The notes beneath the pieces were generated by a model. It made no database searches and was not told the DNA's origin. It was given only the letters and a program-made list of their open reading frames with translations. A program made the translations under genes and the position numbers. Below, in pieces: positions 16,093 to 20,017 of a stretch of 64,000 bases of DNA; within the stretch, counting starts at the first letter, position 1, and every line of letters starts with the position of its first letter. Where the stretch lies: positions 81,515-145,514 of the forward strand of contig CAMDKL010000001.1 in NCBI GenBank assembly GCA_945900945.1, given 5' to 3'. The stretch is from Pirellula staleyi DSM 6068. Lineage in GTDB: Bacteria > Planctomycetota > Planctomycetia > Pirellulales > Pirellulaceae.

Positions 16093-17367
16093 ATGCGTAT
16101 TGCAATCGTTGCGCTCAATGCTTTTCCCGCGATTGAACCAAGCCGAGGTTGCGGGATTGGCGGACTAGAAACATTTGCATGGAATTTGGCGCAAGGGTTA
16201 GCTGCCAGCGAGGCCGACGAGATACTTTTTTTGGTTCGAAGCGAACACCCAAAAGTAACTCGCGTTTACGAAAAAGTGAAAGTCGACTTCATTCATGAGC
16301 CCTTTCGAGCGATACGCCAAAGTGTTTCAAAGGCCGTGGAAATCGGATCCTGGAAAAAACTGCCTCGCATCAAGAATTGGGACCCAAGCTTAATTTGGAA
16401 GATACCGACACTGGCCATTCGGAAATTGTTTTTCCCTCGCTACTCGGAAGAAAAATCGATCTCTTTGGCGATCAACCGATTTGCCCCCGAACTCCTATTA
16501 ACGCTCGGCGTCAATCAAACCTCAGCGATCCTCGGCGAAATCGCTCTGGCACTAAGAATTCCGATCGTACTATGGTTGCAATCCAACGCTGATTTAGCAC
16601 CCCAGCTTTTCGAAAGTGGACCGTTTGTTGATCGCTATGGTGTCCGCAGCGCACATGCGCAGCAATGCATTCGACTATGTCGCAACATCATTTGCCAAAC
16701 CGAAACGCAACGATTGCTGATTCAGCATATCGAGCCTAAATTTCCGAATACGTTATCGCAACCTATTCGAACTACGTTCATTCCGAATCCCGTTAATACG
16801 AACCTTTTCCATCCCGGCGAATCACCTTTGTCTGAGCGTCGTGGTGTCTTGTGGATCGGTCGAGCGGATCGATTTCACAAACGTCCTCTAATGGCTATCG
16901 AAATCGCCAAGCGATGTCCGGACATCCCTTTCATCTTGATCGTCAATCCAAGCGACGACGCTATTCGCCAGGAAATCATCAACATGAAGCCGCCAAACGT
17001 TACTTTGGAAGACTTTGTTCCTTCGGCGGAAATGCCGGAGCGCATGCGAAAAGCTTGGATATTTTTATCAACTGGATCCGCAGCGTACGAAGGTTTTCCC
17101 AATGTTCTCCTAGAGGCGTCCGCAAGTGGAACTCCAATCGTATCGCTCGAGGATTTTGACGGATTCCTAAGCCGATCCCTTGGAGGTTTTTCCAGTGATG
17201 GAAATCTAGATAGCCTCGTTCAATTTATCTATCGATTGCATGAGTCGCCTTCAGAATGGAGGGCGATGGGAAGTTCGGCAATCGAGTATGTCCGGAATCA
17301 TCACGATCTATCAACCATCGTGGAGAGATTCCGCAACGAGGCAATACTCGCGACGGTTGTGCGCTAG
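16093..17367 (+). CDS. Glycosyltransferase family 4 protein
   Basis: GGLETFAWNLAQGL; VLWIGRADRFHKRPLMAIEIAKRCPDIPFILIV; YEGFPNVLLEASASGTPIVS. Confidence 0.88.
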   Translation: MRIAIVALNAFPAIEPSRGCGIGGLETFAWNLAQGLAASEADEILFLVRSEHPKVTRVYEKVKVDFIHEPFRAIRQSVSKAVEIGSWKKLPRIKNWDPSLIWKIPTLAIRKLFFPRYSEEKSISLAINRFAPELLLTLGVNQTSAILGEIALALRIPIVLWLQSNADLAPQLFESGPFVDRYGVRSAHAQQCIRLCRNIICQTETQRLLIQHIEPKFPNTLSQPIRTTFIPNPVNTNLFHPGESPLSERRGVLWIGRADRFHKRPLMAIEIAKRCPDIPFILIVNPSDDAIRQEIINMKPPNVTLEDFVPSAEMPERMRKAWIFLSTGSAAYEGFPNVLLEASASGTPIVSLEDFDGFLSRSLGGFSSDGNLDSLVQFIYRLHESPSEWRAMGSSAIEYVRNHHDLSTIVERFRNEAILATVVR

Positions 17368-18384
17368 CTGTCTCGCTTCGACACGTTCGAAACCCCAAGA
17401 CTTGACCCGTTCCATGTGCTGCGGAATCTCTTTGGCATGTTCCCATGTCGATAGCTTGATCGTCAGGATCAAACCACGAAACCTCGACGTCGGATAGGTC
17501 ACGATCGCTTCGACGGTATCGAGCGTGTAGTTCGGAGCTACGTTCGCATCGCAAATCAGATAACGAAATGCCTTGAATAGTCGCCGTTTCACTTGCTGGG
17601 ATTTGGAACGCCAATGTTCGAAACGCGGATTGCTCGCGATCGCTTCGTCCATGTCAGCCGGATCAATGCCGACAACTTGTGCACCCAGGTCGAGGAGTCG
17701 TTGGCAAGCCCCGCCAGGGGACGAACCGATTTCAACGACGCGATCACCTGCGTGGAAAGGCAATCGACTCCATGGAATCGCTTCGGCAATTTTCAGGTAG
17801 GCTCGGCTGATCATGTTATCCGGTATCGCAACCGCGTAGACTCCACCCGGCCAGCCGTCGACTTCGGTTTGGACTGGCTTGGCTGCAACCCACCATCGGT
17901 TGGGTTCCAACAGGATGACTTCTAGAAGTCTTGTCCCAACACTCGCGATCGTGTTGACGGATTGGTTTCGAGGATCATTGCGTTCTGAAAGCGATTTTCG
18001 GAATTGGTCTGCGATCGAGTCGGCCAGCAGCGAGCGTCCAGGCTCGAAACCGTTCCATCCGGGCTGCGCGACGTCTCGCTGCCATATGTGCAAGCATTCC
18101 CAATCAGCCGTGAGGTATTTTTCTTGGATCTGCTCGATGAGTTCGGTGGAGTTGTCGCCATCGAACTTGCCCAACGCGTGCCCGCATGCTCGAATCAGAG
18201 GCGACTGTGGAAGAGGGCGAGACCACGCGGGTGTGTCCAAATCGGATTTGAGTGTGACGAAGCCTTTCTGAGAAAAGGCTAAGCGATACGGCCCCTCGGG
18301 TTCACAAAGTTGGGCTTTGATAGTTGATTCCGCACCGTGCTGGCACGAAAAGTAGACATAGGGACTGTGGAGCGATGGGATCAT
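17311..18384 (-). CDS. FtsJ/RlmM-like SAM-dependent rRNA methyltransferase
   Basis: WWVAAKP ... RAYLKIAEAIPWSRLPFHAGDRVVEIGSSPGGACQRLLDLGAQVVGIDPADMD ... LTIKL. Confidence 0.78.
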   Translation of the reverse strand: MIPSLHSPYVYFSCQHGAESTIKAQLCEPEGPYRLAFSQKGFVTLKSDLDTPAWSRPLPQSPLIRACGHALGKFDGDNSTELIEQIQEKYLTADWECLHIWQRDVAQPGWNGFEPGRSLLADSIADQFRKSLSERNDPRNQSVNTIASVGTRLLEVILLEPNRWWVAAKPVQTEVDGWPGGVYAVAIPDNMISRAYLKIAEAIPWSRLPFHAGDRVVEIGSSPGGACQRLLDLGAQVVGIDPADMDEAIASNPRFEHWRSKSQQVKRRLFKAFRYLICDANVAPNYTLDTVEAIVTYPTSRFRGLILTIKLSTWEHAKEIPQHMERVKSWGFERVEARQLAHNRREYCLVAESLHDG

Positions 18385-18709: not shown

Positions 18710-18942
18710 CTAGTTCGACTGTCCCAAATCTAGTTCGTTGACGCCACTCAGCTTGCCTGAGTGGTGAAGCGTTTGGCAACCAGAATCTAAAACTGCCCCG
18801 ATCTTGCCCAACTCCCTCAAACTGCTGCCTGCGGCAGCAGTTTGAGGGAGCTGGGGAGTCCTGGAGGTACCATTTTCTGGTCGCCAAACCTGCTCACCTT
18901 CGGCACGAGGCCGAAGGGGTCGATTTGGGACAGTCGAACTAG
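18710..18942. repeat. Nested inverted-repeat (cloverleaf-like) element bounded by a perfect 21-bp inverted repeat
   Basis: CTAGTTCGACTGTCCCAAATC (18710-18730) is the exact reverse complement of 18922-18942; four further internal inverted repeats. Confidence 0.85.
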
Positions 18943-19099
18943 TTAGAAAATACACCCCTACGATAAGTTATAGGTGTAATTTTTTCATTTTATGGAGCAT
19001 TTGGACGGCTTTTAACTATTGACAGGGGAGAGAGATAGAGAGAGTGTGTGTGTGGTTGCGGTTTTTCTTTGTTTATTTGACTCTCCCAAAGGACAAATC

Positions 19100-20017
19100 A
19101 TGCGTAGTTATCGAAGGCCTGCTTTTACGCTCGTCGAGCTTTTGGTCGTGATCGCCATTATTGGAATTCTTGTTGGACTTCTGCTACCAGCTGTTCAAGC
19201 TGCCCGCGAGGCGGCTCGCCGCATGCAGTGTACGAACAACCTCAAGCAGATGTCTTTAGCCATCCACAACTATCACGATACGTTTAAAAAGTTGCCACCA
19301 GGAGGGATCACACCGGGAACGTGCTGCAATACCCAGAGCTATATCAACTGGGCGATTGCGATCTTGCCGTACGTAGAGCAAGCAAATCTCCTGGCCCAAT
19401 ACGATCAGAACAAAACCAACGAGCACCCTAATAACGTTGCTGTTGTCCAACAAATCGTCAGCTTATATAGTTGCCCTTCCGACCCCTTTGGTACGCTACT
19501 CCAAAGACCAGCCAGCTCAGCCACCGCGATTGGGAATTACCGACATGGCTCATATCGAGGCTCCTCGGGTTGGATTTCACGAGCAAACTGCTATTTTGAC
19601 TCTGATCAGTGGCTTGCCTCTGGTTGCCCCGAAGCACATAAAGGGATGTTCTTCAGCGTGGGCCGAAACCTGCAAGGTATCGGATTAGGTGCCATCTCGG
19701 ACGGGACGTCAAATACATTGGCGATCGGTGAATACACCACCAAAACTTCAACAAATCGTGGGACTTTTTGGGCTTATCCCTATACTTCCTACGCAATGAG
19801 CAGCATGACATTGAGCAGCGCCCAGCTCATTCCCGATTACGATCGTTCTTGCGCGTTGGGCGGCATCTGCAAACGCGGATTTGGGAGCATGCACACAGGT
19901 GGACTGAACTTCTCATTAGGCGATGGTTCGGTTCGGTTTATCTCCAACAATACAGACATGCAGATTCTTTGCAACGCTGCGACGATCGCTAATGGAGAAG
20001 TATCCCAATTGGAGTAA
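19100..20017 (+). CDS. DUF1559 domain-containing, prepilin-like N-terminus
   Basis: [53 protein letters not shown] at 19100 preceded by AAAGGA. Confidence 0.93.

Follow-up and report, generated by a model that had tools for sequence, protein, structure and literature searches.

Within the window, i.e. the whole stretch of 64,000 nucleotides analysed here, a non-coding and repeatedly nested palindrome of 233 bp (18710-18942) raises the question of what kind of element it is: the preliminary description left the choice between a structured MITE, a mobile cassette of the single-stranded DNA type (attC- or REPIN-like) and a structured RNA. Our data are best explained by a non-autonomous, REPIN-like mobile DNA whose units would be served in related genomes by a double-domain Y1 protein, hereafter dY1, a reading based on sequence comparison to which we give a probability of about 0.6.

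The element, to which no strand is assigned, consists of two inverted units and a central hairpin enclosed in an outer inverted repeat, and the five palindromic parts first reported were all recovered where they had been placed. The outer repeat is perfect over 21 bp, as claimed; its left arm CTAGTTCGACTGTCCCAAATC (18710-18730, + strand) is conserved in the copies of contigs C47, C10, C159 and C102, the right arm (18922-18942, - strand) is its perfect complement, and the arm sequence occurs twice in the window, at both element ends, for a chance expectation of 0. Comparison of copies delimits a CTAG at the left end (18710-18713, + strand), putatively a target site or its duplication, and another at the right end (18939-18942, + strand). 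REP-like unit 1 (18737-18786, + strand) reads GACGCC...CTTGC...GGTGA followed by the tail GTTTGGCAACCAGAA and REP-like unit 2 (18874-18924, - strand) reads CGACCCC...CTCGT...GGTGAGCAG followed by the tail GTTTGGCGACCAGAA, with scores against the unit model R1 of 60.4 bits (E 3e-16) and 58.4 bits (E 1.2e-15), respectively, both units being among the R1 training rows. Hairpin H1 (18744-18764, + strand) is real, but is better divided into an 8-bp stem CCACTCAG/CTGAGTGG that covaries between units and a loop CTTGC at 18752-18756. Hairpin H5 (18897-18917, - strand) also has an 8-bp stem, which like that of H1 covaries between relatives, and its loop is CTCGT on the - strand, the ACGAG described on the + strand. 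The inner stem, with 14 of 15 positions paired as indicated before, brings together the conserved tails of unit 1 (18771-18785, + strand) and unit 2 (18874-18888, - strand). The central hairpin, without assigned strand, contains the expected 18 perfect base pairs at 18812-18850 around a 3-nt apex (18830-18832, + strand) and reaches 23 bp (18807-18855) if one mismatch is allowed.

RNA folding reproduced exactly the conflict-free nesting of these parts, a cloverleaf, on the + strand (-145.8 kcal/mol, z -14.9) as well as on the - strand (-147.3 kcal/mol, z -15.2), and in the folding control none of 200 shuffled sequences was as stable as the element. It sits between divergent ORFs, namely 17311-18384 on the - strand and a gene starting near 19100 on the + strand, and in agreement with the lack of coding signal noted earlier just two ORFs overlap it (99 and 81 aa, both on the - strand), which were judged mechanical. 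The gene at 19100 encodes a product with a prepilin-like N-terminus, and a simple repeat GAGAGAGATAGAGAGAGTGTGTGTGTG is found just upstream of it at 19026-19055.

A search for further copies revealed that the element is multi-copy in its genome (G000; 6.47 Mb, 99.96% complete, 313 contigs), where some ten complete or fragmentary copies with 93-97% identity make up family A. Full or partial copies are carried by contigs C47, C148, C10, C159, C102 and C26, and right-end fragments by C6, C93 and possibly C283; the flanks of the copies are mutually unrelated and some copies end prematurely within H5 or the inner stem. A plasmid search with the element gave no match, and pattern scans of genome and viral collections, in which the window's genome was maybe excluded, gave few scattered matches in unrelated organisms or viral contigs. 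The ends of full copies read CTAG/CTAG in the window and in C47, and TTAG/TTAG in C159. Among left ends, CTAG is found in C47 and C10, TTAG in C159 and GTAG in C102, and among right ends CTAG is found in C47 and C26, TTAG in C159 and CCAG in C148. With regard to the target-site duplication to be looked for according to the preliminary description, YTAG matches at both ends in three copies, one of which is informative. Three copies (L005 on C159, L009 on C26 and L006 on C102) contain an additional palindromic insert of ~110 bp, TGGGCTGATGAAA...TTTCATCAGCCCA, inserted at one common position next to the central hairpin and flanked by a 9-bp repeat GAGTTGGGG; since they share this nested insert, the composite has spread as a unit. 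The insert is in reversed orientation on C102, which suggests that it was inverted or that the site was hit a second time.

The same architecture is found with other sequences. A second and larger subfamily of the window's genome, family B, adopts the fold of family A with its own outer repeat (GGCATAGGCTNCTAGCC...), inner stem (GTTTGG[TG]AACCAGAT) and central hairpin, arranged in the same order; the outer arms of the two families are wholly different and the unit core is conserved. On C44, a divergent copy with changed stems retains this order of parts, outer arms not being seen in it, and in its computed minimum-energy fold H1 pairs with H5 in place of the two side hairpins, as also occurs in some family B copies. 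The cloverleaf was encountered in another species too (G022), with a different sequence. Among family A copies the central apex is hypervariable (TGC, TTA, TAC, GAC, AGTA), differing in 17 of 30 pairwise comparisons versus 16 of 360 in the stem, comparisons that are not independent, whereas the loops of H1 and H5 are nearly constant. In families A and B alike, most copies carry a different 3-nt apex on an otherwise conserved long central hairpin, as though its tip were cut and repaired.

Each half of the element corresponds to one unit of ~50 nt, made of GAC(N)CC, an 8-bp stem, a CTYGY pentaloop, GGTGA and the conserved tail, whose last bases in many relatives are GCTAG or GCTAA. The xTAG motif closes the tail in relatives, and in the window element it stands at both outer ends. 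The window's genome contains 68 units according to R1, a count that extends to E 0.1 and includes some weak matches, and 70 according to a second model, R2. In an alignment whose rows were found mostly by the tail motif, 91.7% of the cells of the stem columns were paired versus 69% in shuffles, and covariation was 0.60 versus 0.18 (0/500). A wider unit set gave 0.82 versus 0.24, a score that is inflated because most of its rows were selected as hairpins. The stem covaries, whereas the loop does not. Close inverted pairs of units, counted from R1 matches in this genome, are tail-inward in 21 cases and tail-outward in one, and the window element has the same layout, with hairpins out and tails in.

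Among relatives the units are patchily distributed, R2 being positive in 26 of 60 genomes and negative in 34, with one to at least about 100 units per genome, and this distribution is REP-like behaviour. Two traits of REPINs are present, i.e. a pair of inverted REP-like units forming a larger hairpin (R1 matches on both strands, and the fold) and many copies, about 70 units here, with a patchy occurrence; extragenic placement was examined for family A only. No GTAG foot was found at the 5' base of the unit hairpin, where GAC(N)CC stands. One genome, G029, contains at least about 100 units, partly as ~70-bp tandem direct repeats, and no PF01797 gene at 97% completeness. In G035, a variant unit with a CCTGC-type loop forms tandem arrays (L200, L216), and the dY1 gene of this genome (L307) lies near weakly matching units.

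The candidate enzyme, dY1, is a protein of about 265 aa that was noticed among the Y1 loci of relatives and that a family search found in 15 of 60 genomes. Units are present in the 1.5-kb flanks of 16 of the 23 dY1 loci, on both sides in 13 of these 16, versus one of 41 single-domain Y1 loci (Fisher p 7e-9; two dY1 loci supplied part of the R2 training units). Upstream, the closest unit lies mostly on the + strand, and downstream mostly on the - strand, which is the tail-inward arrangement of the window element. Units occur in each of the 15 genomes that encode dY1 and in 11 others that lack it (p 1.5e-7); when the comparison is limited to the genus, p is 0.01 and the median number of units is 30 in the presence of dY1 versus 6 in its absence. 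As the genomes are related, these p-values are indicative only, and the association is correlative. Units were not found at several dY1 homologues (L311, L313, L316, L319, L322-L324), some of them at contig ends, and a search of viral contigs returned no dY1. The bracketing of a Y1 HUH gene by the unit in relatives adds to the covarying hairpins, conserved loops, inverted dimers and patchy high copy number that make the REPIN-like cassette the best supported of the options first listed, and from these comparisons dY1 probably spread the units in relatives. Two features of dY1 loci were observed besides: at L292 (G009:C13, 2771-4500) a partial second copy lies downstream, with a 3' remnant of the gene, the same units and GGCAGAGTCGGACGAGCA-type tandem repeats, and at L302 (G020:C23) and L320 the C-terminus of the dY1 ORF runs into the downstream unit array, resulting in a low-complexity tail.

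In Y1 dimers of the IS200/IS605 type (IS608/ISDra2), each active site is built from two chains, the HUH motif and the Tyr coming from different subunits. In the Pfam comparison, the N-terminal half of dY1 matches the model from about position 29 through its last position, and the match of the C-terminal half spans about 5 to 114. In the 20 aligned dY1 proteins, Y119 of the N-terminal half and the HxH of the C-terminal half (His 211/213) are invariant (20/20 for both), and HUH is absent from the corresponding strand of the first half. The HUH region of ISDra2 TnpA aligns to the second half of dY1 (34.7 bits), and its catalytic-Tyr segment aligns weakly to the first (4.8 bits), the residue reading Phe in 2xo6. 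Because Y1 dimers of this type share their sites between chains, dY1 can be read as a fused dimer with one site: the protein resembles a covalent pseudo-dimer whose only active site is split, the Tyr presumably being provided by the N-terminal half and the HUH by the C-terminal half.

The outer arms could instead be the ends of a DDE-type MITE moved in trans, of which the REP-like units would be passengers. An IS5- or IS701-like transposase would duplicate a 4-bp YTAG, and an IS630-like one would use the TA in CTAG. In agreement with this, the arms are perfect over their 21 bp, the composite moves together with them, and the passage from CTAG/CTAG in two copies to TTAG/TTAG in a third is direct-repeat concordant and not mirror-symmetric; arms of this length, with YTAG matching at both ends, resemble such a MITE more than a classical REPIN. 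The MITE option of the preliminary description is thus compatible with the non-autonomy and with both ends, but no IS with these ends was found in the window's genome (at most 2 mismatches) and no IS-like inverted pair among 242 family genomes (1 mismatch). Furthermore, the arms change wholly between families and are not seen on C44 whereas the unit core is maintained, the concordant non-CTAG pair is a single one, and xTAG at both sides fits Y1-type cleavage as well. We consider the passenger scenario unlikely, but a viable one for family A on account of its outer arms and YTAG ends.

Far less probable is an ordinary REP/REPIN of a classical RAYT, with a single-domain Y1 and a GTAG foot. The inverted REP-like dimers and the 11 Y1 (PF01797) matches of the window's genome would suit it, but none of the matches tested is flanked by the unit, the proportion across genomes is the 1/41 given above, and the flank test led us to reject single-domain Y1/RAYT genes as partner. 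Because this partner and the GTAG foot were both looked for and not found, the element is kept out of the classical GTAG REPIN family. Similarly improbable is a structured RNA or regulatory element (e.g. attenuator, terminator or sRNA) conserved for its function in the transcript: the fold is very strong and the H1 and H5 stems covary, but DNA hairpins predict this covariation equally, both strands fold equally strongly, the location is between two divergent genes, and the copies, some incomplete, occupy unrelated loci with a patchy distribution. The Rfam search of the element gave no family at the gathering score (best mir-3160, E 0.18, 25.7 versus 80 bits), and this option has no positive support. 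The element is neither single-copy, nor devoid of covariation, nor a known Rfam entry, the outcomes that the preliminary description had named as refuting it. An attC site of an integron is not supported, since the core box GTTTGGC misfits GTTRRRY (boxes GTTRRRY/RYYYAAC) and no cassette array was seen.

The closest known systems are REP/REPIN (BIME) elements with their RAYT (TnpA_REP), or REPtron, which share with the present one the short palindromic units and their inverted dimers, a copy number that is high but patchy, and a unit-bracketed Y1 HUH gene. The differences are a conserved CTYGY pentaloop, a long tail and no GTAG foot at the stem, a cloverleaf with central hairpin and outer arms, and a two-domain candidate enzyme with a split active site. 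IS200/IS605 TnpA (ISDra2, IS608) and dY1 share the Y1 fold with HUH and Tyr from different domains, but the former has two identical subunits and two sites, and dY1 one fused chain and one predicted site. Class 3 Y1 proteins are single-core, of about 178 aa, with NHVH, a Y----Q motif and a CnGA foot; they are rare, present in Planctomycetes and others, and flanked by atypical high-copy structures in a REPtron-like manner (Quentin et al. 2018, PMC6006769). The rarity, the occurrence in Planctomycetes and the atypical high-copy structures at the flanks are shared by dY1, which differs from class 3 as published by its about 265 aa, the [DN]HxH in the second half, the Tyr before the HUH and the absence of a noticed CnGA foot. 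The GTAG- and CGTC-tagged palindromes (Di Nocera et al. 2013, PMC3733652) are likewise hairpins of REP size that form inverted dimers, some of them located in longer palindromes. The CGTC elements carry AT at the base of the stem and lack a transposase, whereas the stem of the present unit has CC/GG at its base, with GAC in front of it, and the units bracket dY1 genes. A literature search covering few subscription papers found neither a report of such repeats from Pirellula-type genomes nor one of a fused Y1 with a split site, so that the novelty of both is provisional.

Copy number, shared architecture, covariation, orientation, bracketing, co-occurrence and motif pattern are read directly from the sequences. 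In the REPIN-like reading that we favor, a Y1 HUH transposase would bind and cut the unit hairpin once this is exposed in single-stranded DNA, with the element being copied or moved in trans. The likely enzyme in relatives would be dY1, whose gene is bracketed by units of the same orientation, and we infer its binding, cleavage and mobilisation of the units from these arrangements. Against the role of dY1 stands the window's genome, in which dY1 was not found (99.96% complete, 313 contigs) and the Y1 matches are unflanked by units; it may once have held such an enzyme. As dY1 is missing, the elements of this genome would be orphans or relics, and as G029 lacks the enzyme too, dY1 is dispensable for unit persistence and may have been lost. 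There are even odds, in our opinion, that the whole represents a new REP/RAYT-type system of a planctomycete-like order, in which cloverleaf REPINs would be made and spread by a fused, pseudo-dimeric, split-site Y1 HUH transposase. Since RAYT loci are not seen to move as units, the way in which REP and REPIN sequences multiply awaits an explanation, and a fused enzyme with one predicted active site amid its own units would offer a simple, testable minimal case for their spread. For the annotation of these genomes, large multi-arm folds of this kind would be better considered as mobile DNA than as RNA genes.
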